From NCBI GenBank assembly GCA_944324495.1, contig CALUWN010000001.1, positions 62,001-126,000 on the forward strand: a stretch of 64,000 nucleotides of DNA. Reading direction: 5' to 3'. Positions 6,909 through 33,592 of the stretch are shown in pieces. Source of the stretch: an uncultured Mucispirillum sp. (GTDB lineage: Bacteria; Chrysiogenota; Deferribacteres; Deferribacterales; Mucispirillaceae). The notes beneath the pieces were generated by a model. The model had not been told where the DNA came from. It saw only the letters and a program-made list of their open reading frames with translations, and did not search any database. The first letter of the stretch is position 1, and every line of letters starts with the position of its first letter. The translations under genes were made by a program, and so were the position numbers.

Positions 6909-8876
6909 TTATTTAGTAGCTAAAGCTTGAGTAGCAGCTTGTGTACCTGCTATTCTACCAAATGTAACAGTTTCAGAAATAGAGTTACCACCAAGTCTGT
7001 TACCACCGTGAACTCCACCAGTTACTTCACCAGCAGCATAGAAGTTAGGAATAACTTTGCCGTTATTATCTATAACTTGTGCATTAGTGTTGATTTTAAC
7101 ACCACCCATAGTGTAGTGGATACCCGGAGCAATTTCTATTGCAACATAAGGTCCTTTAGTAAGTTTTTTCTCTAAAGTATCAGCTTTTTTGCCGTATTTA
7201 TCTTGTTTAGTATCAACTGCTTTATTATATTCTTCAACAGTTGCTTTTAAGTTTTCAGCAGGCACATTGATGATTTTTGCAAGTTCATCTAAAGTATCAG
7301 CAGATTTAGCTAAATTAAGGTGGAAATAACCTTCAATTTGTTTTAAATCTTTACGGATATTATCATCAAGTACAAGGTAAGCAGTTTGACCTTTTTGAGC
7401 TAAAATAGCAGCAGAAACTTTATCACGAGTAGAAAGTTCATCAAAAAATCTGTTACCTTCATGGTTTACCATAATAGCACCAACACCACGTACCGCTTCA
7501 GTAATAAGTGTGCTGCTGCCTACAGCAATAGAAGGGTGAATTTGGATTTGTTCCATATCAACAAATGCAGCATTTGCTTCTTTAGCTAAATCAAGACCGT
7601 CACCAGTAGCACCCGGTTGGTTAGATGTAGTCATACCTTTGTAATCTGGTTTGTAAGAAACAACTCTATCAGCATTAGCTGAAAAACCACCAGAAGTTAA
7701 AATAACTGCTTTTGCGTGGATTTCATACATTCCTTTATGTTTACCGTCAATTACAGCACCATAAACAGCACCTTTATCATCAACTAAAAGTTTTACAGCA
7801 GGAGAGTTCACTCTAACATCAAGTTTTGATTTAACTGCATTATCTTTATAAACATTTACAAGGTAGCTGCCAACTGCTGCACCACCTTCTGGAGCATGAA
7901 ATCTTTTATTAGTTGCACCACCACCAAAGTTTACAGCACTTAATTTAGCACCGATAGAAGTAAGCCATGCCATAGAATCTGCTGAGTTATTTGCAAGAAC
8001 ATGTACTAAATCAGGGTTAGAAAGGTTTTTACCGCCTTTCATAGTATCTTGAAACATTGTTTCTGCATCATCTTCAATGCCTGCCGCTTTTTGGTAAGTA
8101 GTACCAGCTGCGTTCATACCACCTGCAGCAAGTTGAGAGTTACCACCTGTAATAGGCATTTTTTCAACTAATATAACATTAGCACCTTTTTCTTGAGCAG
8201 TTAAAGCTGAAATAAAACCAGAACCACCTGCACCGATAACTAATACATCAGTTTTTTCAACAATATCAGATTTTGCATTAGTAAAAGAAGCAATATCTAA
8301 TTTTTTAGGAAGAGGTTTAGCTCCTGCAAAACTGATTTTATTATCAAATGAGTGACAGTTGTTGCAGTACATACTAGATGGTTCATGACCACCGTGGCAA
8401 GCAGTACAGTTAATAGTACCTAAGTGGGAAGAGTGTGGGTCGATTTCTAAGTCTTTTGTGTATTCGTTAGAAACTTGTGCTAAATCACCATGGCAAGATA
8501 CGCAGTATGCATTAACAATGCTTTCAGCATCATCTAAAGTGCCAGCTTCACCGTGGCATTGTGTACATGTGATGCCAAATTGTTTCATATGGTCGCCTGC
8601 CATAAACTGAGCTTTATCTCCAGTATTATAAGCTGCATCTTTTTCTTTTTCTAATACATTAACAGTAATAAGTGGGTTTACATTAGGAAGTACCACATCC
8701 TGTTGTTCAACTGTAGTAGATTGTGTAGAAGTATTTTCTACTGGTGTAGCATTATCGCTAACTGCTTGATTTACAACTGCTGTTTGATTTTCAGTTGTTT
8801 CCGCAGGCTGCTGTTTTTTACAAGCAGCAAATGCAAGCAGTAAAATGCTTAGTAAAATTAAGAACTTTTTACTCAT
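6909..8876 (-). CDS. Tetraheme flavocytochrome c, fumarate reductase-like lipoprotein
   Basis: Periplasmic terminal reductase, 655 residues. A lipoprotein signal ends at Cys19 (LAFAAC). Four CxxCH heme sites follow at 104-108, 125-129, 157-161 and 171-175, then a FAD-binding domain from about 210 (VLVIGAGGSG). Residues that I recall as catalytic in Shewanella FccA (His365, Thr377, Arg402, His504, Arg544) have counterparts at His447, Thr459, Arg484, His587 and Arg627, with almost the same spacing. That favours fumarate or a close analogue over urocanate. The mature Cys suggests membrane anchoring, unlike soluble FccA. It is a single-gene unit with its own terminator. Confidence 0.88.
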   Translation of the reverse strand: MSKKFLILLSILLLAFAACKKQQPAETTENQTAVVNQAVSDNATPVENTSTQSTTVEQQDVVLPNVNPLITVNVLEKEKDAAYNTGDKAQFMAGDHMKQFGITCTQCHGEAGTLDDAESIVNAYCVSCHGDLAQVSNEYTKDLEIDPHSSHLGTINCTACHGGHEPSSMYCNNCHSFDNKISFAGAKPLPKKLDIASFTNAKSDIVEKTDVLVIGAGGSGFISALTAQEKGANVILVEKMPITGGNSQLAAGGMNAAGTTYQKAAGIEDDAETMFQDTMKGGKNLSNPDLVHVLANNSADSMAWLTSIGAKLSAVNFGGGATNKRFHAPEGGAAVGSYLVNVYKDNAVKSKLDVRVNSPAVKLLVDDKGAVYGAVIDGKHKGMYEIHAKAVILTSGGFSANADRVVSYKPDYKGMTTSNQPGATGDGLDLAKEANAAFVDMEQIQIHPSIAVGSSTLITEAVRGVGAIMVNHEGNRFFDELSTRDKVSAAILAQKGQTAYLVLDDNIRKDLKQIEGYFHLNLAKSADTLDELAKIINVPAENLKATVEEYNKAVDTKQDKYGKKADTLEKKLTKGPYVAIEIAPGIHYTMGGVKINTNAQVIDNNGKVIPNFYAAGEVTGGVHGGNRLGGNSISETVTFGRIAGTQAATQALATK

Positions 8877-14768: not shown

Positions 14769-15356
14769 ATGATAGAAAAATATAAGCAGGATATATGTGA
14801 AATAGGCAGAAGAATGTATGCAAGGGAGCTTGTTGCTGCAAATGACGGCAATATTTCTATAAAAGTGGAAGAAAATAAACTGCTTATTACACCAACTATG
14901 ATGAGTAAAGGCTATATGGTGGAAGATGATATAATCTTAATAGATTATGAAGGAAATGTTTTAATGGGCAGTAAAAAGCCATCATCAGAATACCTGCTTC
15001 ACACTACAGTATATAAAAGCAGGCAGGATATAAATGCAATAGTCCATGCTCACCCTGTAACAGTTTCTGCTTTTGCCATATGCAGCCGCCCTGTAGATAT
15101 GCGTTATATGCCTGAAGCAATTATGAGTCTTGGTGTTTTTCCTGTGGCAGAATATGCCCGCCCTGGTACAAAAGAATTGGCACAATCTATTATGCCATAT
15201 ATTAATGACCATAATGGCTGTATTTTAGCAAACCATGGAGCTGTTAGCTGGGCAAAGGATATATACTCTGCTTATTACATAATGGAGCAGCTTGAGTTTT
15301 ACTGCAAAACATCATTAATAGCAGAGCATATGGGTAACCCTAAAATTATCCCTTAA
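14769..15356 (+). CDS. Class II aldolase, probable methylthioribulose-1-P aldolase
   Basis: Zinc-dependent class II aldolase/adducin family protein, 195 residues. The metal site is visible as HAHP around residues 93-96 and a third His in ILANHGAVSW near 155; the catalytic Glu is in PSSEYLLHTTVY. Pairing with mtnA supports the DHAP shunt: cleavage of 5-methylthio- or 5-deoxyribulose 1-phosphate to dihydroxyacetone phosphate plus an aldehyde. The alternative is an MtnB-type dehydratase of the same fold. The missing mtnC/mtnD neighbours favour the aldolase, but the rest of the genome is not visible. Confidence 0.78.
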   Translation: MIEKYKQDICEIGRRMYARELVAANDGNISIKVEENKLLITPTMMSKGYMVEDDIILIDYEGNVLMGSKKPSSEYLLHTTVYKSRQDINAIVHAHPVTVSAFAICSRPVDMRYMPEAIMSLGVFPVAEYARPGTKELAQSIMPYINDHNGCILANHGAVSWAKDIYSAYYIMEQLEFYCKTSLIAEHMGNPKIIP

Positions 15357-16065
15357 CTGATTTTAAAAATTCTTCTGTTAAAGTTTTATCATATTTTACA
15401 AACTCATTCATAATGCCTGCAACAGCATAATAAAGGTTATTATCAACCTGCGTAATCTGTTCTTTTAAGTGCATTGTAAATTCATTTATCCAAGTAAGAA
15501 TATGAGCTTGTAAAAAATTATACTGTTCTTGCAAAAGATTTGCTACTTTATCATAATTTTCTTCTTCTAAAAATTTTATAAGCAGAGCATTAAGCTGTTG
15601 CAGATAAAGCATTTCAATACTAACATGGTCAGCAGGCAGCGTATTATCTTCAGGTGGAGTAAAATTATTTACTTCATAAATATTTATAATTTTATCTTTT
15701 TCGCGTATCTGCATATTATTACTCAAAAAATATTCTGAAGCAGTGCAAGGAATAGCATAAGTTGTATCAAGAAAAAGCTCTGTAAAAATATCCTGCTGAA
15801 GTTCTAAAAAATCTTCTAAAGCATCTTCATCTTGATTTTGTTCGCAGGTATTGTAATTTTTTAAAATATTAATACATAAGCTGTAATCATTTATTAATAT
15901 ATGTTTTTTAAGTTCTTCAAAATAAGGGATTAATTTTGCGGTAGTACCTATAAAATTCATATCGGGAAATGTATAAAATACTTTGAAAAAATAATTATAA
16001 AAATTTGTTTTTATAACACCAGCAGAATGCATATTATCTTTTAAAGTATTACTTATGTTGCTCAT
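15346..16065 (-). CDS. TorD-like chaperone, paralogue A
   Basis: 239-residue helical cytoplasmic protein, clearly paralogous to the gene at 26629-27345. Shared signatures are DHVSIEMLYLQQLN in the middle and FLQAHILTWINEF near the C-terminus, the family pattern in which an aromatic-rich helix precedes the signal-peptide groove. It overlaps the stop of the convergent aldolase by 11 bases. The probable role is redox-enzyme maturation for a periplasmic molybdoenzyme. The client is unknown; it is about 6 kb from the molybdopterin operon. Confidence 0.65.
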   Translation of the reverse strand: MSNISNTLKDNMHSAGVIKTNFYNYFFKVFYTFPDMNFIGTTAKLIPYFEELKKHILINDYSLCINILKNYNTCEQNQDEDALEDFLELQQDIFTELFLDTTYAIPCTASEYFLSNNMQIREKDKIINIYEVNNFTPPEDNTLPADHVSIEMLYLQQLNALLIKFLEEENYDKVANLLQEQYNFLQAHILTWINEFTMHLKEQITQVDNNLYYAVAGIMNEFVKYDKTLTEEFLKSVKG

Positions 16066-16181
16066 TCTTCACCTCTAAAAAACTAATACTTATACTATTA
16101 TAGCAAAATATTTATAATTATCTAGCTTTTTTTATTGAGTTGTTTTATTCTATTATTATATTAATAGAATTGGTGAAGTTT

Positions 16182-16982
16182 ATGTTAAAAATTGGGTTTA
16201 TGGATTACGCAAACGTATATCCTATATTTTACTATTTATTACAGGATAAAAATATTGAATATATAAAGGGAGTGCCTTCAGAATTAAACAAGGCTATGAG
16301 GCAGGGGCTTATAGATGTATCGCCTGCTTCAAGTATTGAATTTGCAAGAAATCATGACCTTTATAATGTGCATAATAAAATATGTGTTTCTTCTATTGGA
16401 GCAGTGAAAAGTGTAAATTTATACAGCAATTATAAGGCAGAAGAATTAAATGGTAAAAAAATATATTTTACAAAAGATTCAAATACTTCAACAGTATTAT
16501 GCCGTATTGTGCTTGAAAAATTTTATAATGTGAAGCCTATTTATGTAGATGATGAAAACAATGCAGATGCTTCACTTTTAATAGGTGATAAAGCACTTTT
16601 TGCTTACTATAATTCTTCAGCTCCTTATATAATTGATTTAGGAAAAGAATGGTATAATTTCACAAAACTTCCCTTTGTTTTTGCATTATGGATTATTAAA
16701 AAATCAGCAGAAAAAGATGAATATTATCACACATTAATAGAAAATATTACAAAATATGGTATGCTTTTTCCAAAAGATATTGAAAACCTTGCTCCAAAAT
16801 ATTTAGAAAGGGGCTATACTTTAGAGCAAATAGAAGACTACTGGAATACAATAGTATATGAAATGACTGATGAACATAAAAAAGGGCTGTCACTTTTTTA
16901 TAACCTTGCCTATGAGCTTGGCGAAACAAAAGATAATGGGGCAGATTATATTGACAACGCTTTTATAAAACAAATATTATGA
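16182..16982 (+). CDS. mqnA: Chorismate dehydratase (futalosine menaquinone route)
   Basis: MqnA/MqnD-family protein of 266 residues. It converts chorismate to 3-enolpyruvylbenzoate, the first step of the futalosine pathway to menaquinone. The fold begins LKIGFMDYANVYPI, followed by the family's GVPSELNKAMRQGLIDVSPAS near residues 30-50. The beta strand KIYFTKDSNTSTVL and the segment LGKEWYNFTKLPFVFALWII (domain closure) agree with MqnA more than MqnD. The ATG at 16182 follows GGTGAAG. A menaquinone route fits the bc complex and quinone-linked enzymes nearby. Confidence 0.85.
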   Translation: MLKIGFMDYANVYPIFYYLLQDKNIEYIKGVPSELNKAMRQGLIDVSPASSIEFARNHDLYNVHNKICVSSIGAVKSVNLYSNYKAEELNGKKIYFTKDSNTSTVLCRIVLEKFYNVKPIYVDDENNADASLLIGDKALFAYYNSSAPYIIDLGKEWYNFTKLPFVFALWIIKKSAEKDEYYHTLIENITKYGMLFPKDIENLAPKYLERGYTLEQIEDYWNTIVYEMTDEHKKGLSLFYNLAYELGETKDNGADYIDNAFIKQIL

Positions 16983-18417: not shown

Positions 18418-19179
18418 TTAATTAATAAGTAAATCAATAATTTTTTTACTTTCTTCTTCTGTCAGCTCAATTTTAGGCATGGTGGCGTTTTTTTTCAAAC
18501 TTCTTGGGTTTAAAAGCCACTGTTTTAAATTATCTTTATTCCAGCTTTTTCCATTTAAGTATTCAGGATATGTACTTTTTAAACTGCTTAAATTTGGGGC
18601 ACTATCAAAATAGCCTAATGCACCAATACTTGTTAATGCTTTATGGCAGCTGCCACATTTATTATTAAATAAATCAGATGAATTTTCGTTGTTATTAAGG
18701 CGTACAATTTGAGTAATAGATTTTACTTCTGTATTAATAGTATAATGATACAGCCCTGTTATTAAATACCTGTAATCTTCATCGCTGAACTTAAATTTTG
18801 GCATATTTACAACTGGTTCTTTTATAGCTTTTATAATTTCATCTGTTGATAATCTTTTTACAGCAGAGTTTAAATCAGTTGCATAAGCTGCCCCAGTATT
18901 TCCAATTTTATGGCACCTTGTGCAGTTTGCTTCATTTATTAATTTTATACCTTTTTGGGTTATAGTGCTTTTTTCATTATTAAATTCTGCATATTCGCCT
19001 TTAATAAGTTTATAATGGGCAATATCTTGACGTGTTGTTGTATCATTTCCCCTGTGGCAGATTATGCAGTTGTTACCTTTTTCCACACATATATTTTCAT
19101 GGCAGGAAATACATCTGTTTTCCCCATAAGAATATGTGTATGAAAAAATAATAAGTAAAATTAAAAACCTAATAACCAA
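18418..19179 (-). CDS. Exported tetraheme c-type cytochrome
   Basis: 253-residue periplasmic cytochrome with an N-terminal signal peptide (VIRFLILLIIFSYTYSYG). Four CxxCH sites are visible: CISCH and CIICH close to the N-terminus, CTRCH in the middle and CGSCH in the last third. The two later sites sit in mono-heme cytochrome c-like domains, each with a following Met that could be an axial ligand (VNMPKF, ATMPKI). It is the last gene of a seven-gene operon and overlaps the cytochrome b subunit IV gene by 19 bases, which supports a role as electron acceptor of the bc complex. Confidence 0.82.
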   Translation of the reverse strand: MVIRFLILLIIFSYTYSYGENRCISCHENICVEKGNNCIICHRGNDTTTRQDIAHYKLIKGEYAEFNNEKSTITQKGIKLINEANCTRCHKIGNTGAAYATDLNSAVKRLSTDEIIKAIKEPVVNMPKFKFSDEDYRYLITGLYHYTINTEVKSITQIVRLNNNENSSDLFNNKCGSCHKALTSIGALGYFDSAPNLSSLKSTYPEYLNGKSWNKDNLKQWLLNPRSLKKNATMPKIELTEEESKKIIDLLIN

Positions 19180-19580
19180 TATTCTTTCCTAAAAAAATAT
19201 GCAATAATAGTTAATGTTATAATAATAAATAAGATTATAGTAGTTAAAATATTTATAACTTTATAACTTTTATGAAACCATATGGCATTTTCTGGCACTT
19301 TTTTTATAAAAAAGGGCATAACCATATAGATTATAAAAAATAAAATTATTAAATAAATATAATAACTTCCATAGGAAGCAAGCTCTTGAGTCCATAATAA
19401 AAACCATGCAGATTTAGATGGGTTAGGGGCGTTATATGGCTCTGCTTTTTCCTCCAGTGGTGCATCAAAAAAATATGCTCCAATAAGTATAAAAATAATC
19501 ATTATAATAGATGATATTTTTATAATCTTAAAAAAGTAGGGGTCTGATTTTATATATTTATCTTTATTATTTTCTATCAT
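19161..19580 (-). CDS. Cytochrome b C-terminal part (subunit IV-like)
   Basis: 139-residue membrane protein with three hydrophobic helices. It corresponds to the C-terminal half of mitochondrial cytochrome b or to b6f subunit IV. The marker is APNPSKSAWFLLWTQELASY near residues 50-70, the conserved segment before the quinol site. It overlaps the cytochrome b6-like gene by 4 bases. Together the two form a split cytochrome b, as in b6f-type and many delta/epsilon-type bc complexes. Confidence 0.8.
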   Translation of the reverse strand: MIENNKDKYIKSDPYFFKIIKISSIIMIIFILIGAYFFDAPLEEKAEPYNAPNPSKSAWFLLWTQELASYGSYYIYLIILFFIIYMVMPFFIKKVPENAIWFHKSYKVINILTTIILFIIITLTIIAYFFRKEYWLLGF

Positions 19581-20194
19581 AAATAAGGTAAAACCCCCTT
19601 ATCACGCCGTACTCTAAAAAAATGTATAAAAGAAAGTATAATAATACTTACAGGCAAAATTATAATATGCAGTGCATAAAACCTAATTAAAGTAAGCCTG
19701 CCGCCTACACCGTCAGGGATTAATATATTATATATATAATCACCAAAAGGGAGTATTTTAATTAATTCTGCCCCTGTTTGTGTTGCCCAAAAAGCAAGCT
19801 GGTCCATTGGTAAAAGATAGCCAGTGTAACCTGTAAAAATACTAAAAAAAAGTAGAAAAAGCCCTATAACCCAGTTGTATTTTCTGCTTAAAAAAGCACC
19901 TGTATATATAACCCTTAAAATATGTAAAAAAATTAAAACTAAAAATGTGTTGCTTGCAAACCTGTGCAGGTTTCTTATATATTTTCCACCTGATACATTT
20001 TCTTCTATAAATATTATTGAATTATAAGCATTATTTGGCTCTGGAGTGTAATATAAGGCCAGTAAAATTCCAGAAATAATTAAGATTAAAAATGCAGTAA
20101 AAGAAAGACCACCAAGGCATAAAGTATATGTAAATTTAAGATTTTTTTTAATTGTAACCCTTGGGAATAAGTGTTTTATAAATTCTTTAAACAT
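19577..20194 (-). CDS. Cytochrome b N-terminal part (b6-like)
   Basis: 205-residue membrane protein with four hydrophobic helices, the heme-bearing half of cytochrome b. The two pairs of heme ligands are visible: His in RNLHRF and LIFLHILRV on helix II, and YALHIIILP and LSFIHFFRV on helix IV, with 13 residues between the members of each pair. A GYTGYLLPMDQLAFWA segment matches the conserved loop after helix III. It is the central quinol-oxidising subunit and partners the Rieske protein encoded just upstream. Confidence 0.88.
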   Translation of the reverse strand: MFKEFIKHLFPRVTIKKNLKFTYTLCLGGLSFTAFLILIISGILLALYYTPEPNNAYNSIIFIEENVSGGKYIRNLHRFASNTFLVLIFLHILRVIYTGAFLSRKYNWVIGLFLLFFSIFTGYTGYLLPMDQLAFWATQTGAELIKILPFGDYIYNILIPDGVGGRLTLIRFYALHIIILPVSIIILSFIHFFRVRRDKGVLPYL

Positions 20195-20196
20195 AG

Positions 20197-20586
20197 CTAT
20201 AAATGTATTATAATATTATTATTTTGTATAGTATAGTCTATATGTTTTAAAGGTTTTAATGCAGGGCCTTTTAAAACATTTCCTTGTAAATCAAAGGTAC
20301 TGCCATGGCATGGGCATATAAATTTATCATTTTCCACATTTAATACGCAGCCTAAATGGGTGCAGGCAATACTTAAAACTGTAATACCTTCTTTACCGTT
20401 TAATATACCTATTTGTTTATCTTTAATTAAATAGGCACTATTAAGGGGCAGTTTATCTACAGGTATAGTTATAACCTTATCTTTTTTTACTTTTGGTGTC
20501 AAGTATTTATAAAGTAATACAAAAGGCGTGAGCCATAAAAGCTTAAGCAAATCACGCCTTTTGATATTTTTTTTAAGAAAATTCAT
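20197..20586 (-). CDS. Rieske iron-sulfur protein
   Basis: 129-residue Rieske subunit of the bc-type complex. Cluster ligands are Cys75 and His77 in CTHLGC and Cys91 and His94 in CPCHGS; Cys80 and Cys93 would form the stabilising disulfide. The N-terminus, KRRDLLKLL followed by a hydrophobic helix, looks like a Tat signal anchor, the usual export route for this protein. It lies 2 bases before the cytochrome b gene and 21 bases after the cytochrome b561-like subunit of the molybdoenzyme. Confidence 0.92.
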   Translation of the reverse strand: MNFLKKNIKRRDLLKLLWLTPFVLLYKYLTPKVKKDKVITIPVDKLPLNSAYLIKDKQIGILNGKEGITVLSIACTHLGCVLNVENDKFICPCHGSTFDLQGNVLKGPALKPLKHIDYTIQNNNIIIHL

Positions 20587-20607
20587 TCTTTTACTAAATT
20601 TGACACA

Positions 20608-21297
20608 CTATTTTACAAACATACCGGGATGTTTTTTCTTAGCGTGTTCTAAATCATCTTTACCATCTCTAAACATAGCATTGTAACCTGCTTTATTAAC
20701 AGGGTGGATAGCTAAGTAGATATGTATAATCAAGAAGATTACAAATACTGTAAAGCCAATATCATGAAGTAGACGCATAATGCTTACAGTTGTAGAATCA
20801 AGAGATACCCTAAACCATAAGAATAAGCCACTGATAATCATAATTAAGCCAAATACGATTACAGCAAGCCCTGCAGCAATCTGCCCAAAGTTATATTTGC
20901 CTGCTCGTTTTGGATATGAAAAATCAATATACATAGTTTTCATATCAGCAAGCTCTTCAGTTACGTATGTTTTCCATGATTCATCTTTTCTTTTTCTAAA
21001 GGCTAAATGCCATTTTTTGAAAATCATAGAAAAAGTAAAAGGTATGCTTAAAGCTATCCATAACATAGCTGTTATTCTATGAAGTGCTCTGCATATTTCA
21101 ATACCAACATAAGTTGGTTCTGCTGTAGAATAAAATACAGATATAGGCACACCAATAAGATAAGCTATCCATGAAAATGAGTGGGAAAGTATTGGAAGCC
21201 CTGTAAAAATAAATATCATCATAAAATGGATAACATGCTTATGGTACCACATTTGCATATTTGAAAATAATGTAATTTTTTCATTTGAGTTACTCAT
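20608..21297 (-). CDS. Cytochrome b membrane subunit of the molybdoenzyme (FdnI-like)
   Basis: 229-residue di-heme cytochrome b561 type subunit, similar to formate dehydrogenase gamma. About four to five hydrophobic helices are present. Candidate heme ligands are His in WYHKHVIHF, CRALHRIT, RLLHDIG and IHIYLAIHP. The minus-strand ATG at 21297 was chosen because AAGGAG lies 7 bases upstream; an ATG two codons earlier is too close to that site. It exchanges electrons between the quinone pool and the Fe-S subunit. Confidence 0.82.
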   Translation of the reverse strand: MSNSNEKITLFSNMQMWYHKHVIHFMMIFIFTGLPILSHSFSWIAYLIGVPISVFYSTAEPTYVGIEICRALHRITAMLWIALSIPFTFSMIFKKWHLAFRKRKDESWKTYVTEELADMKTMYIDFSYPKRAGKYNFGQIAAGLAVIVFGLIMIISGLFLWFRVSLDSTTVSIMRLLHDIGFTVFVIFLIIHIYLAIHPVNKAGYNAMFRDGKDDLEHAKKKHPGMFVK

Positions 21298-22105
21298 TTT
21301 CATTCTCCTTATGTTCATCTTTGCCAGATAATTTCACAGCTGAATAAACAGCATGCCCTGCTACAGCAGCAGCGGTACCAATAATAGCAGCAGTGCCTAT
21401 TACTTTTGTGATTTCTCTACCACCTGCAACACCACTGGATGGGTCTGCAGGAAGCAGATAATCATCCCTGTTTTCAACAGGTGCAATAGTCATATATGAA
21501 AGAGTGCCTACTGTATCATTAACTTTATCAGCCCCATATACAAAGTATTCTTTATTAAATACTTTTGAGTAATGCTCAGCTCTTTTTCTAGCTTCAGATA
21601 TAACTTCTTCTTGTTTGCCAGAAAAGATTGCAACAGAAGGGCAGGCAACAGCACAAGCTGTCTGCATACCAGCAGTCAACCTGTCGTGGCACATAGTACA
21701 TTTATATGTTTTGCCTGTATCTTTAGAAAATACTGGTACATCGTAAGGGCATACGTCTTTACAAGCCTGACAGCCAACGCATCTTTCTTGATTAATTACA
21801 ACAGCACCAGTTTCTTTTTTAGAAATAGCAAGGGCAGGGCATATTTCCATACATTTTGGGTTATCACAATGCTGGCAGTGTTTAAAAGCTGCTATTTGTG
21901 ATACATTAGGAAATTTACCTTTTTCATTAACTTCCACTCTTAAATAATTTAAATGTGGCTGTTCTTCTACCATAGATTTTTCTACAGTATAATTATAGTC
22001 CCTTTGAAGTCTCATTCTATTTTCAGTGGAACAGCTTATAACACAGGCAAAGCATTTTATACATGATTGAGTATCATAGCAAACTGCCATTTTATCGTAA
22101 CTCAT
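21290..22105 (-). CDS. 4Fe-4S ferredoxin subunit of the molybdoenzyme
   Basis: 271-residue electron-transfer subunit of the PsrB/PhsB/DmsB class. Four cysteine groups for 4Fe-4S clusters are visible: CIKCFACVISC, CQHCDNPKCMEIC, CVGCQACKDVC and CTMCHDR with a later CAVAC. The C-terminus has a hydrophobic segment (VIGTAAIIGTAAAVAGHAVY) that probably crosses the membrane, an addition seen in formate dehydrogenase beta subunits. It overlaps the catalytic subunit by 4 bases and the cytochrome subunit by 8 bases. Confidence 0.9.
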   Translation of the reverse strand: MSYDKMAVCYDTQSCIKCFACVISCSTENRMRLQRDYNYTVEKSMVEEQPHLNYLRVEVNEKGKFPNVSQIAAFKHCQHCDNPKCMEICPALAISKKETGAVVINQERCVGCQACKDVCPYDVPVFSKDTGKTYKCTMCHDRLTAGMQTACAVACPSVAIFSGKQEEVISEARKRAEHYSKVFNKEYFVYGADKVNDTVGTLSYMTIAPVENRDDYLLPADPSSGVAGGREITKVIGTAAIIGTAAAVAGHAVYSAVKLSGKDEHKENENE

Positions 22106-24627
22106 TTTGCCCTCCTTATTTTAACAATAAAATCTTGTGATGGTGCAGAAGCTTCAACAGGCATAAAGTTTAAGTTACCAATATGGTTAGGGTTAAAGCC
22201 AATAGGGGAAGCAACACTTAATTTATCAGCAAGTTTTCTGTAAAGCCCGTTACCAACGCCGTAAAATGAAAAAAGAGTGTGAGGTTCAACAGTTTCAGAT
22301 AACTGAACTTCTGCTTTAACCACTAAAGACGGCTCTTCAATATTAAATATTTCTATTAAATCGCCACTTTTTAAGCCTAAAGCATTACCTCTATCAGTAT
22401 TAATAAATACAGCAGAGTAGTTTAATTTTGCACCCACATTCCTTAAAAGAATATTGTTTCTTGTTTGAGCTCCAGTAAAAGAACTAAGTGGTGAAAAGCC
22501 TGTTATAGGTACAAACTCATCATTATCAAGTTTTTCTTTTAATGTTTGATAATATGTAGGAGGGCAGCTAAAGAGCGGGTCAAAGTATTTAGCATCATTT
22601 TCTCTGCCTTGGTTTAAAAGTTCCTCATGCCATTTTGCCATAAAAAGTGAATAAACTTCTAATTTTCCAGAAGGAGTTGGTTTATTCATAGGCTTAACTG
22701 GGGCAGGAACACCGCACCATACGCCGTCTTCAATTAATTTTCTTCTTGAGAAAATAGCAGCATCTGCTTCATCAAGCTCAAGGTTTTCAAGCTGATAATC
22801 AACTATATATTTTACACCGCCTGCTTCAAAGTCACCAAAATATGAATAGTATTCATCATCAGAAAAGATTCTTTTAGCAATAGCAAGCATAATCCAGTAA
22901 CCATTGCGTGTTTCAAACATAGGGTCTATCACTTGGTCATGCACGGTAATCACAGGAAATGTGGCTTTATATTGACCAAATAATGGTTCAGATCTTTCTA
23001 AAAATGTGGTATCTGGTAATATAACATCAGCATAAAGAAGCGATTCATTCCAAAATGGTGAAATAGCTGCAACCATTTCCATTTTCTCTAATGCTTTTGC
23101 CATTTTATGACCACCAACGCTGCCACCAACTGGGTTTTGACCATTTAAAAATGCCATACGCAGTTTATATGGTTCTTCTGTTTCCACAGCTAATGGGAAA
23201 GTTCTTCTCATATTATATGGGTCGCAGAGCTCAAAACCTTCTACATTTTCTTTATACCACATATTAACAGAGATTTCGTTGCTGTCAGAATAATCAAAAG
23301 GGGAATATAAATAAGCATATCTGCCATATATTAAGCCACCTTTTCTACCATAAACACCTAAAAGGCCATTAATAACAGATATTAATTGTTTTTCATGGAG
23401 TGAGTTGTAATACCTTGTAGCACGGTATCCTCTTTCTAAAAAGCAGGCAGGTCTAGTATCGTTTAAATCTTTTGCCAGTTTTTGAATCTGCTCAACAGAA
23501 ATACCACTTTTTTCAGCAGCTTTTTCAATAGGGAAAGCATTACAGGAATCTATAAGCATTTGAAGTGCAGTTTTAGCTTTTACGCCATCCACATTATATT
23601 CACCATAAAGGGCAGGGCTTTCAGCTTCAGACTTCATCACTGCTGAATTTGTAGCAGTATCATATACTTGATAATCTGGGTCATTTTCATCATCACCCTC
23701 TTGCAGATATACAGGCTGTAGAGTTTCTGCATTTATAAGCATATCAGCATTTGTATATTCTTTTAAAAATTCTTCATCGTAATATTTATTTTTAAAAAGT
23801 TCTCCAGCAAGTCCAACTAAAAATGCCACATCACCACCGGGAATAACTGGCAGCCATTCTGTATCTGTTTCACCAACCCCTAATGATTTTTTAGGGTCAA
23901 CAAGTACAGTTTTCATACCATTTTTTCTACCCCTGCCAAACATACCGCCCCAAGGGAATGCAACTAAGCCACCAACAGGGTTTCTTCCTATTAATACAGC
24001 AAGTTTAGCGTTTTCATAATCACCCATAACAGATGAGTTACCTTGACGTGGTTCTTCACCACCGCCACCAAATACACTACCTAAACCTAACTGGTTTGTA
24101 GAGCCAAAGCAGGTATCACCATATGAAAAAAGGTTATCAGTTCCATAAAGGTTAAAAATAGTATCATCAAGTAAAGATGCACTATTAAACCTAGGAAAAT
24201 ATGCAACGGAATGTGGTTCACCTTCTTCCCTTAATTGCAGCATTTTATTGCCAATTAAATCAAGTGCTTCATTCCAAGATGCACTTCTAAATTCGCCGCT
24301 TCCACGTTTACCTGTTCTAATAAGTGGAGTTTTAATTCTTTGTGGGTCATATAATGCAGCAGTAGCTGCTCTACCTCTACCACATATTGATGGGTATGGT
24401 GTGTTTGGGTTAGCATCTAACCTTACAAGCCTGCCATCTCTAGTATAAGCCACCATTGGACAATTTTGAGCACACATACGGCATGTAAGGTAAGTTTTAT
24501 TTTCAACACCAAAATCAGCCGAAGTGATTTCCCTTGCTTCAGTTTTTAATGGACTACCAGTAAATACTGCAGCCCCTGCAAGACCAGCTACTGAAGTTTT
24601 CATAAAATTTCTTCGAGTAAGCTTCAT
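22102..24627 (-). CDS. Tat-exported molybdopterin oxidoreductase, catalytic subunit
   Basis: 841-residue molybdo-bis(MGD) enzyme of the DMSO reductase family. The Tat signal is LTRRNFMK at residues 3-10. The N-terminal 4Fe-4S ligands are Cys49, Cys52, Cys56 and Cys82. The likely Mo ligand is Cys173 in YGDTCFGST, as in polysulfide/thiosulfate reductases, tetrathionate reductase and some formate dehydrogenases. A C-terminal molybdopterin dinucleotide-binding domain begins near residue 715. The ATG at 24627 follows GAGGAGG. Substrate is unresolved: the divergent rhodanese lipoprotein suggests sulfur or polysulfide, while the FdnI-like subunit would also suit a dehydrogenase. Confidence 0.88.
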   Translation of the reverse strand: MKLTRRNFMKTSVAGLAGAAVFTGSPLKTEAREITSADFGVENKTYLTCRMCAQNCPMVAYTRDGRLVRLDANPNTPYPSICGRGRAATAALYDPQRIKTPLIRTGKRGSGEFRSASWNEALDLIGNKMLQLREEGEPHSVAYFPRFNSASLLDDTIFNLYGTDNLFSYGDTCFGSTNQLGLGSVFGGGGEEPRQGNSSVMGDYENAKLAVLIGRNPVGGLVAFPWGGMFGRGRKNGMKTVLVDPKKSLGVGETDTEWLPVIPGGDVAFLVGLAGELFKNKYYDEEFLKEYTNADMLINAETLQPVYLQEGDDENDPDYQVYDTATNSAVMKSEAESPALYGEYNVDGVKAKTALQMLIDSCNAFPIEKAAEKSGISVEQIQKLAKDLNDTRPACFLERGYRATRYYNSLHEKQLISVINGLLGVYGRKGGLIYGRYAYLYSPFDYSDSNEISVNMWYKENVEGFELCDPYNMRRTFPLAVETEEPYKLRMAFLNGQNPVGGSVGGHKMAKALEKMEMVAAISPFWNESLLYADVILPDTTFLERSEPLFGQYKATFPVITVHDQVIDPMFETRNGYWIMLAIAKRIFSDDEYYSYFGDFEAGGVKYIVDYQLENLELDEADAAIFSRRKLIEDGVWCGVPAPVKPMNKPTPSGKLEVYSLFMAKWHEELLNQGRENDAKYFDPLFSCPPTYYQTLKEKLDNDEFVPITGFSPLSSFTGAQTRNNILLRNVGAKLNYSAVFINTDRGNALGLKSGDLIEIFNIEEPSLVVKAEVQLSETVEPHTLFSFYGVGNGLYRKLADKLSVASPIGFNPNHIGNLNFMPVEASAPSQDFIVKIRRAK

Positions 24628-24665
24628 CTTAGCCCTCCTCATTTTGCTTCTTTAGATGTTATTTT

Positions 24666-24678
24666 TGTTAATATAACA
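24666..24678. promoter_or_regulatory. TGTTA-N3-TAACA palindrome, possible operator
   Basis: A perfect inverted repeat of 5 bases each side of ATA lies 39 bases upstream of the molybdopterin oxidoreductase start. Its size and place suit a dimeric regulator, perhaps of the CRP/FNR superfamily, but it does not match the classic FNR half sites. In DNA this AT-rich a match of this size can arise by chance. Confidence 0.3.
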
Positions 24679-24913
24679 TCCATATTTCTTTATGTACTAC
24701 ATATATATTTTTTTTGCAAGTAAAAAATTAATAGTGTTTTATTTTTTTAAATATTTAAAAATTTATAGTATAAAATATAGGAAAATAAATTTATTCTCAT
24801 AGTAAAAAGGTAGTAATACGATTATTATAAATTCAAGTAAAATTATAATTTTAAGCACTTATATATATTTTATAATACTGTTTTAAATTATAAGATAAAA
24901 TAAAAAATAATTC

Positions 24914-24942
24914 TTGCAATTTTTTTAAAAAAATAGTAATAT
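24914..24942 (+). promoter_or_regulatory. Candidate sigma70 promoter of the rhodanese gene
   Basis: TTGCAA at 24914 and TAATAT at 24937 with a 17-base spacer, about 60 bases before the rhodanese ATG. The surrounding A/T tracts are typical of promoters in this genome. Confidence 0.45.
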
Positions 24943-25002
24943 ACTTTTTATAATACTGGAATATACAGATGTAAGGTATTATGCATATAAACAGGAGGAG
25001 AT

Positions 25003-26556
25003 ATGTTTACAAAAATCTATACTAAATCATTAGTATTATTAAAGCTTGTTTTAGTAACTGCTTTAGTAACATTGGCATTTGCTGCTTGTAAAAAACAATC
25101 ACCAGATGCTGCCCAAAATAATACAGCTGTTATTCAGGCTGAAAAGCCGGGCTCTGCACTTATTGAAGCAGATGTTTTAAAAAAGTATATTGATAATGGC
25201 TATAAAACAGATGACGGTAAAAAAGTACTTATTCTTCATGTAACACTTCAAAATGGTACAGTGCCAGAAACTACTATAAAAGGTGCTTATCCTTTTAGTC
25301 AGGAAGAATATTTAATGGAAAAAAGAAGTGATGGTGTTGCACCAAACGGTGCTATGGTTGCAAGTGGTGCTAAGGTTGATAAGTTTTTATCTAAATACGG
25401 CGTTGATAAAGATACTGTAATAGTACTTACAAGCCACGACTTAACTAACCAAATGATATATAGAACTTTCTGGGCTTTAAAATACTGGGGCTTTACAAAC
25501 GATAATTTAAAAGTATTAAACGGTGCTAACTATTATTTCTTTAATCAGTTTGCAAAAGATAATAATATTGCAAATATTGATACTTATAAAGCAGCTCCAG
25601 CAGATATTGCTTCTATTAAGCCGACAACATTTTCTGTAAAAGATTTACCTGCTAATAATATTGATTTATTACGTGCTCCATTTGGTGAAGTATTAGAATA
25701 TGTAAAAGCTGGTAAATTAAAATCAGATGCTTCTGGTGAAGTGGCAGTATTTTCTACAATTGATGCAAAAATCCCTGTAAAATCAAATGGTGAAGTTGTT
25801 ACATATACTATATATAATAATAATGCAGTAGATGGCAGAATAAAAGGTGCTACTCAGTTTGCATTTGAACCAATAGAGCAGGGTGGCTATGCTACACACT
25901 GGGCAATGTATCTTGATGCAGAACTTTCAAAAGACGGTAAATATACAATCACTGGTGGCAAAGGTACATTTAAAACTCCAGAACAGATTAAAGGTTTTGT
26001 AAAAGGTTTCACTGAAAATGACGGTAAAACTACTAACCCATCATCATTTTTTGCAAACCTTGATAAAGACCCAAATAAAAGACTTATGTTTCACTGCTAC
26101 ACAGGCAGAACTACTGCTCCACACTGGTTTATATTCAGGGAAATATTAGGCTATAAAAATGCTGCTATTTATGACGGTTCTTGGCAGGAATGGAGCTCAT
26201 ATTCAGTTTACTATCCACAGGATGCAGCAAATGCACCATATGCAAGAGTGTTAGTTGGTGAAGATGACCCAAATACATACGATAACCAAAATACAGACTA
26301 CATTTATTATAATGGTGAAAAATTTGTATTATCTGACGGAAAAACAGAACCATCACTTGAAAGGGAAGAAATTAAAAACTTCTTAGATAAATGGGATGTT
26401 ACAAAATATACTGATTTTGCTACATTAGGTGTAGAATCATACTATGAAGATGAAGAAGTAACATTTTACCCATTAAGTAATGGTAATATAGATACTTTAT
26501 ATATTGGTGACGGTAAAGAAATCAATAAAGAAGATAAAGAATATAAAGGTATGTAA
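25003..26556 (+). CDS. Rhodanese-domain lipoprotein
   Basis: 517-residue exported lipoprotein; the signal ends LAFAAC with Cys29. Two rhodanese-like modules are suggested. The N-terminal one (about 45-190) has no active cysteine at the expected loop. The C-terminal one has the catalytic loop MFHCYTGRT with Cys365, followed by the family's YDGSWQEWS. A periplasmic sulfurtransferase of this sort could carry polysulfide sulfur to a reductase, as Sud does for Psr in Wolinella, and the divergent molybdoenzyme operon fits that. The GGAGGAG ribosome site is strong. The substrate and partner are inferred. Confidence 0.8.
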   Translation: MFTKIYTKSLVLLKLVLVTALVTLAFAACKKQSPDAAQNNTAVIQAEKPGSALIEADVLKKYIDNGYKTDDGKKVLILHVTLQNGTVPETTIKGAYPFSQEEYLMEKRSDGVAPNGAMVASGAKVDKFLSKYGVDKDTVIVLTSHDLTNQMIYRTFWALKYWGFTNDNLKVLNGANYYFFNQFAKDNNIANIDTYKAAPADIASIKPTTFSVKDLPANNIDLLRAPFGEVLEYVKAGKLKSDASGEVAVFSTIDAKIPVKSNGEVVTYTIYNNNAVDGRIKGATQFAFEPIEQGGYATHWAMYLDAELSKDGKYTITGGKGTFKTPEQIKGFVKGFTENDGKTTNPSSFFANLDKDPNKRLMFHCYTGRTTAPHWFIFREILGYKNAAIYDGSWQEWSSYSVYYPQDAANAPYARVLVGEDDPNTYDNQNTDYIYYNGEKFVLSDGKTEPSLEREEIKNFLDKWDVTKYTDFATLGVESYYEDEEVTFYPLSNGNIDTLYIGDGKEINKEDKEYKGM

Positions 26557-26561
26557 AACAA

Positions 26562-26630
26562 AAGGGGAGTAAAATGAGCAGAACCCTATTTATTTGTCAA
26601 TAAATGGGGTTCGCCTCAAAAGCTCCCCTT
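26562..26630. terminator. Nested inverted repeat between convergent genes
   Basis: An outer 8-base stem (26562-26569 with 26623-26630) encloses a second hairpin (GAACCC at 26581-26586 with GGGTTC at 26607-26612, extended by ATTTA/TAAAT). It starts 6 bases after the rhodanese stop and covers the stop codon of the convergent TorD-like gene. A T-rich tract follows on the right. It probably ends the plus-strand transcript; the nested form is unusual for a plain terminator. Confidence 0.6.
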
Positions 26631-27345
26631 ATGTATTTTTTAATTCATCATAAAATTCTTTCATTAGTTCTGTATCATATTTTACATAGTGTTTCATTAT
26701 TATTGCAACAGAAGCATAAAGGCTTGAATTTAAAGTGGATGCCTTTTCATATACTGCATTTGAAAATAAATCTATCCAAACTAAAATATGTTTTTCTGCA
26801 AACTCTATTTGGTCTTCTACGGTAGCTAATGTAAGGTTATAGTCTTTATCATCAACAAGTTTGCCAGTTAAATCACTTAATTTTTGCATATAAAGCATTT
26901 CTACACTAATATAATCTTCTGGTGATTTAATGTTTTCTGGCATTTGAAAATCTCTTGTTTTATATATGGCTTTTACTTTTTGCCATTCTTCCCCTTTTAA
27001 TAAACCATCGCTTGATAAATATGATGAGGCAGAAGCAGGTACATTTCCCATACCACTTAAAAAAAGTGCAGTAAATTCAATATTTAACCTTTGAAGAAAA
27101 TCTTCTTTATTTGTAAGATTTTTTTCGTTTTCAACATATTTTTCAAATAAATCGCAGGCATTATTATATTCTTCATCTTCAATATATTCTTTTAAATCTT
27201 TAAAGTATGAAAGATATTTTGAAGATACTCCTAAAAATTCTTCTGTTTGAATACCATTGAATATTCTATAAAAATAATTAAAAAAAGCACTTCGTAATAT
27301 GGAAGCATTTGTTAAATCAACTTGTAATTCTTCGCTAAATGACAT
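26629..27345 (-). CDS. TorD-like chaperone, paralogue B
   Basis: 238-residue helical cytoplasmic protein, paralogous to the one at 15346-16065. They share SVEMLYMQKL / SIEMLYLQQL in the middle and EKHILVWIDLF / QAHILTWINEF near the end, with the same length. The family assists assembly of Tat-exported molybdoenzymes. It is convergent with the rhodanese gene and close to the molybdopterin operon, so it is the best-placed candidate chaperone for that enzyme. Confidence 0.68.
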   Translation of the reverse strand: MSFSEELQVDLTNASILRSAFFNYFYRIFNGIQTEEFLGVSSKYLSYFKDLKEYIEDEEYNNACDLFEKYVENEKNLTNKEDFLQRLNIEFTALFLSGMGNVPASASSYLSSDGLLKGEEWQKVKAIYKTRDFQMPENIKSPEDYISVEMLYMQKLSDLTGKLVDDKDYNLTLATVEDQIEFAEKHILVWIDLFSNAVYEKASTLNSSLYASVAIIMKHYVKYDTELMKEFYDELKNT

Positions 27346-32042: not shown

Positions 32043-32801
32043 ATGCGAGCAATTTTTTTATCAATATTATTTTTGTTGTTACCACTATTTTATCCAGTAG
32101 GCTATAGTGCCTTATGTAAGGATAAGCCACAAGACTTTCCAGATAACCTAACAGGTAAATGGATAAGGTTAGATAATATGATAGTTCCTCATATGGAGAT
32201 TAGGTATAACCCAGAACATGAATGTAAAGATATGGTTTATAACAATGGATCATCTAAAAAATGCTATACAGCATATAAATTTGCAACAAGTTCAGGTTCA
32301 ATGGAATTTGATTATGTAGAAATAGATAAAAAGAATAATCAATTTTCATTAAGATATACAGGAACAGAAATGCAACCCGAAGAAGTGGTGCAAGTTTTAA
32401 AAAATGGCAAGTATGTCCCATATGATAAGAATGATACCGAGTTATTTCAAGCTTCATATGCAGGTAAATTATCAGGCTATAAATATAAACTGGTTTATGA
32501 GAAAGATTTATTAAAAAGAGTAATAATGCGTCCCACATATATCCCTAAGGTAGATGGTTATGAAATTGATGATTATCAGTTAATTTGGTATAATTATTAT
32601 TACATAGAATTTATTAATCAAATGAATAATACTGATTTCATATCAGTTGCCCCATATTTTCAAGAATATGGTGAAAATGTTAGATATGATGGTCCAGTGT
32701 TAGTATTTATAAGGGCAGATAAGTTAAAAGAATATGGTATACCAGTATATGATTATAAATCAGGTAACAAATCATACTTTTACTACAAAAAACCATATTA
32801 A
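32043..32801 (+). CDS. Exported putative immunity protein, copy 1
   Basis: 252-residue protein of no family I recognise. A Sec signal peptide covers about residues 1-23 (FLLLPLFYPVGYSA), so the mature form is periplasmic. Three cysteines occur early in the mature part (ALCKDK, HECKDM, KKCYTA). The rest is beta-rich with many Tyr and Asp. It starts 27 bases after the toxin-like gene behind a strong AGGAGG site. A periplasmic partner directly after a protein with a papain-like domain fits an immunity role. Function is inferred from position only. Confidence 0.6.
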   Translation: MRAIFLSILFLLLPLFYPVGYSALCKDKPQDFPDNLTGKWIRLDNMIVPHMEIRYNPEHECKDMVYNNGSSKKCYTAYKFATSSGSMEFDYVEIDKKNNQFSLRYTGTEMQPEEVVQVLKNGKYVPYDKNDTELFQASYAGKLSGYKYKLVYEKDLLKRVIMRPTYIPKVDGYEIDDYQLIWYNYYYIEFINQMNNTDFISVAPYFQEYGENVRYDGPVLVFIRADKLKEYGIPVYDYKSGNKSYFYYKKPY

Positions 32802-32833
32802 TTTTTTATAAATACATAAACGAGGGGCTTATA

Positions 32834-33592
32834 ATGCGAGCAATTTTTTTATTAATATTATTTTTGTTGTTACCACTATTTTATCCAGTAAGCTATAGTG
32901 CTTTATGTAAGGATAAGCCACAAGACTTTCCAGATAACCTAACAGGTAAATGGATAAGGTTAGATAATATGATAGTTCCTCATATGGAGATTAGGTATAA
33001 CCCAGAACATGAATGTAAAGATATGGTTTATAACAATGGATCATCTAAAAAATGCTATACAGCATATAAATTTGCAACAAGTTCAGGTTCAATGGAATTT
33101 GATTATGTAGAAATAGATAAAAAGAATAATCAATTTTCATTAAGATATACAGGAACAGAAATGCAACCCGAAGAAGTGGTGCAAGTTTTAAAAAATGGTA
33201 AGTATGTCCCATATGATAAGAATGATACTGAGTTATTTCAAGCTTCATATGCAGGTAAATTATCAGGCTATAAATATAAACTGGTTTATGAGAAAGACTG
33301 GTTAGAAAGAGTAATAATGCGTCCCACATATATTCCTAAGGTAGATGGTTATGAAATTGATGATTATCAGTTAATTTGGTATAATCATTATTACATAGAA
33401 TTTATTACCCCAGAGAATAATACTGATTTCATAGCAGTTAAACCATTTTTTCAAGAATATGGTGAAAATGCGGAAAATGATAGTCCTACTTTAGTATTTA
33501 TAAGGGCAGATAAGTTAAAAGACTATGGTATACCAGTATATGATTATAAAGCAGGTAACAAATCATACTTTTACTACAAAAAACCATATTAA
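32834..33592 (+). CDS. Exported putative immunity protein, copy 2
   Basis: 252 residues, near-identical to the preceding gene. Changes include Leu-Leu-Lys to Trp-Leu-Glu near residue 156 and a cluster between about 195 and 220 (INQMNN versus ITPENN; VRYDGPVL versus AENDSPTL). The signal peptide and three cysteines are kept. The ribosome site is GAGGGG. The cluster of changes in one segment suggests altered partner specificity while the core is retained, as often seen in arrays of immunity genes. No toxin gene separates the two copies. Confidence 0.6.
   Translation: MRAIFLLILFLLLPLFYPVSYSALCKDKPQDFPDNLTGKWIRLDNMIVPHMEIRYNPEHECKDMVYNNGSSKKCYTAYKFATSSGSMEFDYVEIDKKNNQFSLRYTGTEMQPEEVVQVLKNGKYVPYDKNDTELFQASYAGKLSGYKYKLVYEKDWLERVIMRPTYIPKVDGYEIDDYQLIWYNHYYIEFITPENNTDFIAVKPFFQEYGENAENDSPTLVFIRADKLKDYGIPVYDYKAGNKSYFYYKKPY

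Follow-up and report, generated by a model that had tools for sequence, protein, structure and literature searches.

Layout and composition of the operon

The window examined here, a stretch of 64,000 nucleotides (nt) of contig CALUWN010000001.1 (assembly GCA_944324495.1, positions 62,001 to 126,000) from an uncultured Mucispirillum species, carries on its minus strand seven genes for a molybdoenzyme and a cytochrome bc complex, running from 24627 to 18418 in the order molybdenum (Mo) catalytic subunit (here called MoA), iron-sulfur (FeS) subunit, membrane anchor, Rieske protein, ExtP, ExtQ and ExtS (Table 1). An original prediction for this DNA had listed seven open reading frames that overlap or nearly touch, and all of them are indeed present on the minus strand at the positions of Table 1, with six junctions of -4, -14, +21, +2, -4 and -19 nt in the window. 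Across the eight genomes in which the two halves are linked, all six junctions range from -19 to +21 nt, two of the 48 gaps being approximate since no start codon is found at the expected position, and start and stop codons overlap at most of the junctions. The anchor/Rieske junction (20586/20608), which is +21 nt in the window, measures -1 nt in four of these genomes, -4 nt in one and +21 nt in three. A promoter/terminator scan of the window found no terminator-like site in this gap; the scan is uninformative, its counts being near the shuffled means (49 promoter-like sites vs 55.3 and 8 terminator-like sites vs 5.5). We are highly confident that all seven genes are genuine and make up a single operon of this composition. 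The gene set of the original prediction was thus correct as far as it went, and overlooked the divergent ExtH gene and two TorD-type chaperones. Both predicted promoters probably lie in the intergenic region between the operon and ExtH.

Table 1. Features of the molybdoenzyme-bc locus, in window coordinates
Feature	Position	Strand	Match or remark
MoA, Mo catalytic subunit, 841 aa	22102-24627	minus	PF00384 5.5e-34
FeS subunit, multi-cluster ferredoxin, FdnH-like with C-terminal transmembrane (TM) helix	21290-22105	minus	Fer4_11 1.3e-22
b561-type membrane anchor, FdnI-like	20608-21300	minus	PF01292 3.7e-13
Rieske protein, ExtO equivalent	20197-20586	minus	PF00355 2.5e-11; CTHLGC and CPCHGS motifs
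ExtP, cytochrome b N-half	19577-20194	minus	PF00033 9.3e-37; NF040969 227 bits (cut-off 290)
ExtQ, subunit IV-like C-terminal half	19161-19580	minus	NF040970 138.9 bits (cut-off 150), 1.1e-40; no Pfam match
ExtS, tetrahaem c-type cytochrome	18418-19179	minus	four CXXCH; NF040971 220 bits (cut-off 100)
Intergenic region between divergent operon and ExtH	24628-25002
ExtH, rhodanese-like, lipobox-like N-terminus	25003-26556	plus, divergent	NF040901 157.5 bits (cut-off 200); PF00581
TorD-type chaperone	26629-27345	minus	PF02613 2.1e-20
Another TorD-type chaperone (32% identity with the one above)	15346-16065	minus	PF02613 7.3e-14
Putative MqnA-like menaquinone synthesis gene	16140-16982		our reading of the sequence

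The Rieske protein, the split cytochrome b and the tetrahaem cytochrome c are, judged by their sequences, ExtO, ExtP, ExtQ and ExtS, the bc complex encoded in the selenite/tellurite (ext) cluster of Geobacter. In the passages of Jahan et al. 2018 (PMC5877670) on this cluster, extHIJKLMNOPQS, ExtO is a Rieske protein, ExtP a cytochrome b, ExtQ a membrane protein and ExtS a tetrahaem lipoprotein. The order Rieske-ExtP-ExtQ-ExtS of our operon is identical in relatives. ExtS lies above its NCBIfam equivalog cut-off and ExtP, ExtQ and ExtH below theirs; indeed the ExtP cut-off is reached in none of 50 genomes of the phylum Deferribacterota, the set used for all counts within the phylum. Both Rieske cluster motifs are present, and the four histidines H77, H91, H176 and H191 of ExtP are invariant in 9 of 9 aligned rows together with Cys26, which from its position would be the haem c_i cysteine of b6f-type complexes. 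ExtQ lacks the PEWY motif and has A-W-[FY] and Q-E instead in 52 of 52 aligned rows, within the pattern P-N-P-x-[KR]-[SA]-A-W-[FY] ... W-x-Q-E. In families f4 and f6 (L056-L059, L175-L182) the ExtP frame continues into ExtQ (about 340 aa), and the split cytochrome b is seemingly fused. It should also be mentioned that the NCBIfam model NF040968 (FeS_ExtO) matches a multihaem ExtN-like cytochrome (L065:1923-3059, 416 bits) rather than the Rieske protein of the operon, and its label looks wrong when compared with the published ExtO, a 14 kDa Rieske protein.

MoA has a twin-arginine translocation (Tat) signal (TRRNF), the invariant [4Fe-4S] cysteines C49, C52, C56 and C82, and Cys173 at the Mo ligand position; the spacing of Cys173 from a conserved glycine is as in ArrA, and the alignment sets it one column off the cysteine of PsrA and ArrA. 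The FeS subunit aligns with E. coli FdnH, its C-terminal helix included (best NCBIfam match formate dehydrogenase (FDH) beta, 119.8 bits, below cut-off), and the anchor aligns with E. coli FdnI including the four histidines and the GKYN..GQ motif (best NCBIfam match FDH-gamma, likewise below cut-off); an NrfD-type anchor is absent from the operon. In a mixture-model tree of 43 rows (tree 1) the 13 MoA rows form one clade (support 100) on a long branch, which adjoins a clade containing Thermus PsrA (81). In a quick LG+G4 tree of 78 rows (tree 2), which includes true PhsA members and 28 unlinked PsrA rows from the phylum, a PsrA/PhsA clade of 57 rows (95) excludes MoA, and the branching order of MoA, ArrA, DmsA and PsrA is not settled. 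The rows L056_Mo11, L136_Mo, L154_DmsAlike and L050_Mo13 (re-entered as L206) of tree 1 were dropped before tree 2, which is also without the PsrA next to ExtI in genome G013 and labels the PsrA of G003 (opposite strand, 3.6 kb off) as unlinked. From these alignments and trees MoA is a deep lineage near but outside PsrA/PhsA, with no characterised member in the trees used. The original prediction had proposed to place it by phylogeny among formate, polysulfide, thiosulfate, tetrathionate or arsenite/arsenate enzymes, and this has succeeded in part, in that MoA stands outside FdnG, ArrA and PsrA/PhsA; tetrathionate and arsenite enzymes are absent from the trees.

A formate dehydrogenase (FdnG) identity of MoA can be rejected, since the ligand is Cys followed by Phe and not selenocysteine/Cys-His and since the tree placement is likewise contrary, and a plain PhsA/PsrA identity fails on tree 2 and on a score of 271 bits against the PhsA cut-off of 694. 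True PhsA members (1037 and 1029 bits) do occur in two genomes of the phylum, sited elsewhere. The AlphaFold model of MoA is weak, with a mean predicted local distance difference test (pLDDT) score of 65.1 and an active-site loop below 50, and a Foldseek search with it gave many members of the dimethyl sulfoxide reductase family at like scores, perchlorate, arsenate and polysulfide reductases first, and hence no placement. A plasmid search with MoA gave, among the 30 of 84 matches listed, only about 22-26% identity. A second, unlinked copy of the MoA-FeS-anchor genes (about 55% identity) is found in two Mucispirillum genomes (L063:8553-12613 and L019).

Linkage of the two halves within and beyond the phylum

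MoA is found in 17 of the 50 Deferribacterota genomes (E up to 1e-100) and a PsrA-type subunit in 24 (E up to 1e-90), the latter in none of the window's family, where the MoA type occurs instead; according to the passages concerned of the Deferribacter genome paper (PMC6896113), psrABC clusters are found in all sequenced Deferribacteres except M. schaedleri. A PF00033 cytochrome b is present in 26 of the 50 and single copy in all but G049, whose second match (L047, contig C144, 2154-2717) is strong, has seven in-frame TGA codons and is probably mitochondrial contamination of the genome bin. The original prediction had allowed that the orthologues might turn out unlinked in all relatives; instead, wherever both MoA and ExtP were found in the window's family, which is in eight genomes (G000, G038-G044), they are linked. 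G046 is uninformative on linkage, because its contig ends inside MoA, with ExtH and TorD adjoining, and in G013 and G024, which belong to other families, both genes are present and far apart.

Elsewhere in the phylum the same bc complex adjoins PsrA, PsrB and an 8-TM NrfD-type anchor. A Mo subunit is encoded upstream of ExtP on the same strand in 22 of the 26 bc-bearing genomes (8 MoA, 14 PsrA), its gene ending 1.9 to 2.3 kb ahead of ExtP in 20 of the 22 cases; in G013 PsrA is likewise on the strand of ExtP but 10.6 kb downstream of it, beyond ExtH-ExtI, and G003 has a Mo subunit near ExtP but on the opposite strand. When G048 and G049 are left out, whose contigs end 1.4 and 3.2 kb upstream, the same-strand cluster holds a Mo subunit in 23 of the 24 informative genomes (8 of the MoA/FdnI type and 15 of the PsrA/NrfD type), and since the genomes are relatives these are not 23 independent events. 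By chance alone, roughly 0.02 Mo genes per genome would be expected on the same strand and no more than 10 kb from a given gene. In the phylum this bc complex as a rule has a molybdoenzyme beside it, and the general statement of the original prediction that bc complexes usually have their own operon does not apply to it, joint placement being the norm. Furthermore, as the complex stands beside MoA/FdnI in eight genomes and beside Psr/NrfD in 15, we can conclude that two unrelated molybdoenzyme complexes occupy one operon slot.

A scan of named genomes matched 166 stretches, of which 136 encode relatives, and the results rest on the best 80 of these 136. A same-strand Mo subunit is found at 21 of the 54 loci with at least 8.3 kb of upstream sequence, and when seven Deferribacterota loci are excluded, 14 of the remaining 47 show a same-strand subunit of the PsrA type (11 Geobacterales-type, 2 Acidobacteria, 1 Eisenbacteria). 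ExtI is present at 1 of these 14 loci versus 19 of the 33 without a molybdoenzyme, as if ExtI and molybdoenzyme modules were alternatives to each other. In the Geobacter-like class around G050, MoA was found in 1 of 195 genomes (G199, L171; 46% identity), where its neighbours are TorD, an FeS subunit and a sensor kinase, and the 16.8 kb stretch shows neither FdnI-like nor bc genes.

In G038, which represents a sister genus, ExtM, ExtN, ExtI and two ExtH genes are divergent from the MoA-bc operon, and the Mucispirillum loci retain ExtH, MoA-FeS-anchor and ExtOPQS. The linked MoA rows form a clade (support 97 in tree 1 and 86 in tree 2), and MoA relatives not linked to bc genes are found in g2, as second copies in G041 and G043, and in other families. 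Since the linked rows form a clade, the simplest account would be that the FdnI-anchored enzyme joined the bc genes in a common ancestor of Mucispirillum and the G038 genus. Over the Mo tree (tree 2) the label "linked" undergoes at least four changes, gains and losses counted alike, and the association of Mo and bc genes has therefore been gained or lost repeatedly.

Neighbouring genes and genome context

The rhodanese-like ExtH has an active-loop cysteine, Cys365 (CYTGRTT), and the loop cysteine is kept in 37 of 37 ExtH rows. The TorD-type chaperone next to ExtH likely serves MoA, and for the second one this is uncertain. The porin ExtI, ExtJ and the multihaem ExtM/ExtN are absent from the locus in the window, and the remaining six Mucispirillum genomes with linkage lack ExtI, ExtM and ExtN at theirs too. 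In G041 two genes, of 474 and 203 aa and without a Pfam match, lie between ExtS and an ABC ATPase gene (L068:5322-7378), and in G043 (L071) the pair is found in two tandem copies. Elsewhere in the window, two near-identical 252-aa genes stand in tandem downstream of a 1507-aa open reading frame (32043-33592), and a fumarate-reductase-like flavocytochrome c with FAD_binding_2 and Cytochrom_c3_2 domains is encoded at 6909-8876.

ExtP is the sole PF00033 match detected in its own genome, which has one COX1 with a FixO-type partner and, as other molybdopterin proteins, NapA-like, FdnG, NuoG and DmsA-like ones. M. schaedleri is described in the passages concerned of PMC5285517 as having Nap, Nrf and a cbb3 oxidase and H2-supported growth, and its reductase genes AYGZv1_260003/4 as induced in inflammation; for these, this operon and the DmsA-like cluster L172 of the window's own genome are equal candidates. 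A haem-copper oxidase is missing in 3 of the 26 genomes of the phylum with the bc complex and present in 19 of the 24 without it, and a role of the complex as oxidase partner is rejected by this count (cytochrome b vs COX1, 23/3 against 19/5, Fisher p 0.46).

A possible electron circuit and its relation to known systems

We tentatively favour a reading, which as a whole falls somewhat short of an even balance, in which the operon encodes two quinone-reactive machines in series, the first of them oxidative. MoA, the FeS subunit and the FdnI-type anchor would form a periplasm-facing molybdoenzyme of a lineage related to polysulfide, thiosulfate and arsenate enzymes, which most likely would handle sulfur or selenium species together with ExtH and preferably oxidise its substrate and reduce menaquinone. 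The Rieske-ExtP-ExtQ-ExtS complex would oxidise menaquinol and pass electrons by way of the tetrahaem cytochrome to periplasmic acceptors, with c-type acceptors, for instance the cbb3-type oxidase, as the exit; if the MoA half donates into menaquinone, a series circuit with a menaquinol-oxidising bc complex would follow. Cofactors, topology and menaquinone use are those expected from the families. Because both molybdoenzyme types keep an anchor of a quinone-reactive family of their own, the halves would meet in the quinone pool rather than by direct transfer, and their coupling through the menaquinone pool is quite probable. A rhodanese with an invariant cysteine beside the operon suggests sulfane sulfur or selenium species, a guess that we consider slightly better than neutral. 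The oxidative direction is likewise a guess, and an evenly balanced one. With an FdnI-type anchor energy is conserved when the enzyme works as a dehydrogenase and would be spent when it works as a reductase, as in FdnGHI and PhsABC, hence our slight lean to oxidation; the two directions are kept close since most of the relatives that have been characterised are reductases and the ext phenotype so far described is a reductive one. The original prediction had held that direction is not readable from sequence, and we agree; its quinone circuit is supported in part, as regards the single operon and a functional link of the two halves. A complex with the sole PF00033 cytochrome b detected in the genome is not simply an accessory of one enzyme.

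Several points weigh against this series circuit. In the passages concerned, reductases make up most of what has been characterised in the PsrA/PhsA/SrrA and ArrA groups (PMC7331816) and the Geobacter extI mutant is impaired in selenite/tellurite reduction (PMC5877670), that is, the known phenotype is reductive and belongs to a gene missing at this locus. Furthermore, ExtH is divergent and outside the operon, ExtQ is without the PEWY motif so that a normal Q-cycle is not certain, and the p value of 0.46 leaves no tie between bc complex and oxidase in the phylum. The reductase affinities and the ext phenotype may also point to one reductive pathway with two outlets, in which MoA and its partners would use menaquinol to reduce one sulfur or selenium acceptor, and the bc complex with the tetrahaem cytochrome would supply electrons for a further reduction, for example of the next intermediate, or for a periplasmic reductase. 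Such a pathway is in agreement with the multihaem (ExtM/N/I) and porin genes beside the same bc complex in relatives and has precedents in bc complexes that feed periplasmic Mo reductases, namely Campylobacter Qcr-Nap/Tor and haloarchaeal NarBC-NarGH, but the Mucispirillum locus has no ExtI/M/N conduit genes, an enzyme with its own quinone-type anchor would compete with the bc complex for menaquinol, and an FdnI-type anchor would use up proton-motive force in that direction, as in PhsABC. We consider a reductive pathway of this kind possible, if rather doubtful.

The two halves might also be merely co-regulated, the bc complex being a general menaquinol:cytochrome c reductase that is needed at the same time, for example in inflamed, micro-oxic mucus, with no dedicated circuit. 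A single PF00033 cytochrome b and a single cbb3-type oxidase in the genome imply that the complex must serve all cytochrome c needs; however, relatives retain oxidases without any detected bc complex, and co-regulation leaves unexplained both the occurrence of two unrelated molybdoenzymes in the same cluster throughout nearly all informative genomes and the recurrence at Geobacterales, Acidobacteriota and Eisenbacteria loci, which makes it improbable. That the halves are chance neighbours held by short-range synteny and no functional unit at all is very improbable indeed: the eight linked genomes are all of one family and this MoA linkage may thus be a single event, but the overlapping start and stop codons, the different enzyme type in the same slot in relatives and the low expected linkage all speak against it.

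A wider version of the series circuit, which we regard as unlikely in its full extent, would make the constant ext bc complex with its exchangeable molybdoenzyme a respiratory unit of Deferribacterota, recurring in Geobacterales, Acidobacteriota and Eisenbacteria, in which Mucispirillum replaced Psr/NrfD by an FdnI-anchored enzyme for energy-conserving oxidation of reduced sulfur or selenium in gut mucus. The ext bc complex is widespread in metal-reducing bacteria, the gene context described here bears on its role, and MoA points to an uncharacterised molybdoenzyme lineage. Since M. schaedleri is cultured, lives in mouse gut mucus and is colitis-related, and since its relatives have no other detected bc complex, the circuit is testable.

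The term "molybd" is absent from the main text of PMC5877670, and the literature passages covered here that deal with the ext cluster, with molybdoenzymes of Deferribacterota or with Psr and Rieske genes together make no mention of a molybdoenzyme beside the ext bc complex, which is no proof of absence. The locus shares with the Geobacter ext cluster the Rieske-ExtP-ExtQ-ExtS order and a nearby rhodanese ExtH, but is without ExtI, ExtJ and ExtM/N and has a molybdoenzyme complex immediately upstream of its Rieske gene. In the ext operons of the Psr type found in Deferribacterota (ExtH-I-J / PsrA-PsrB-NrfD / ExtO-P-Q-S), Mo, FeS and anchor genes likewise fill this slot, though theirs are PsrA and an 8-TM NrfD-type anchor where ours are MoA (about 25% identical) and an FdnI-type anchor; with two unrelated molybdoenzymes beside it, the bc core is constant, and the outer-membrane conduit and the enzyme type vary. 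Formate dehydrogenase N (FdnGHI) has a like FeS subunit with C-terminal helix and a like anchor, but its catalytic subunit is FdnG and not MoA. Salmonella PhsABC, Wolinella PsrABC and Bacillus SrrABC likewise belong to the Cys-ligated periplasmic molybdoenzyme group and have an FeS subunit, whereas MoA falls outside the PsrA/PhsA clade and far below the PhsA cut-off. In Campylobacter, Nap and Tor receive electrons via Qcr (PMC6195509), and in haloarchaeal nitrate reduction a Rieske protein and a cytochrome b are encoded with the molybdoenzyme (PMC2483277), a link that inhibition by antimycin A supports in the part of PMC4683180 that deals with it. The haloarchaeal narBC-narGH genes thus resemble the present operon in joining a bc part to a molybdoenzyme, but there the enzyme is NarGH, to which the bc part is believed to donate electrons, whereas here the enzyme has a separate quinone-type anchor. 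In the light of these haloarchaeal and Campylobacter precedents, the joint molybdoenzyme-bc operon of Mucispirillum is a variant of a known arrangement.

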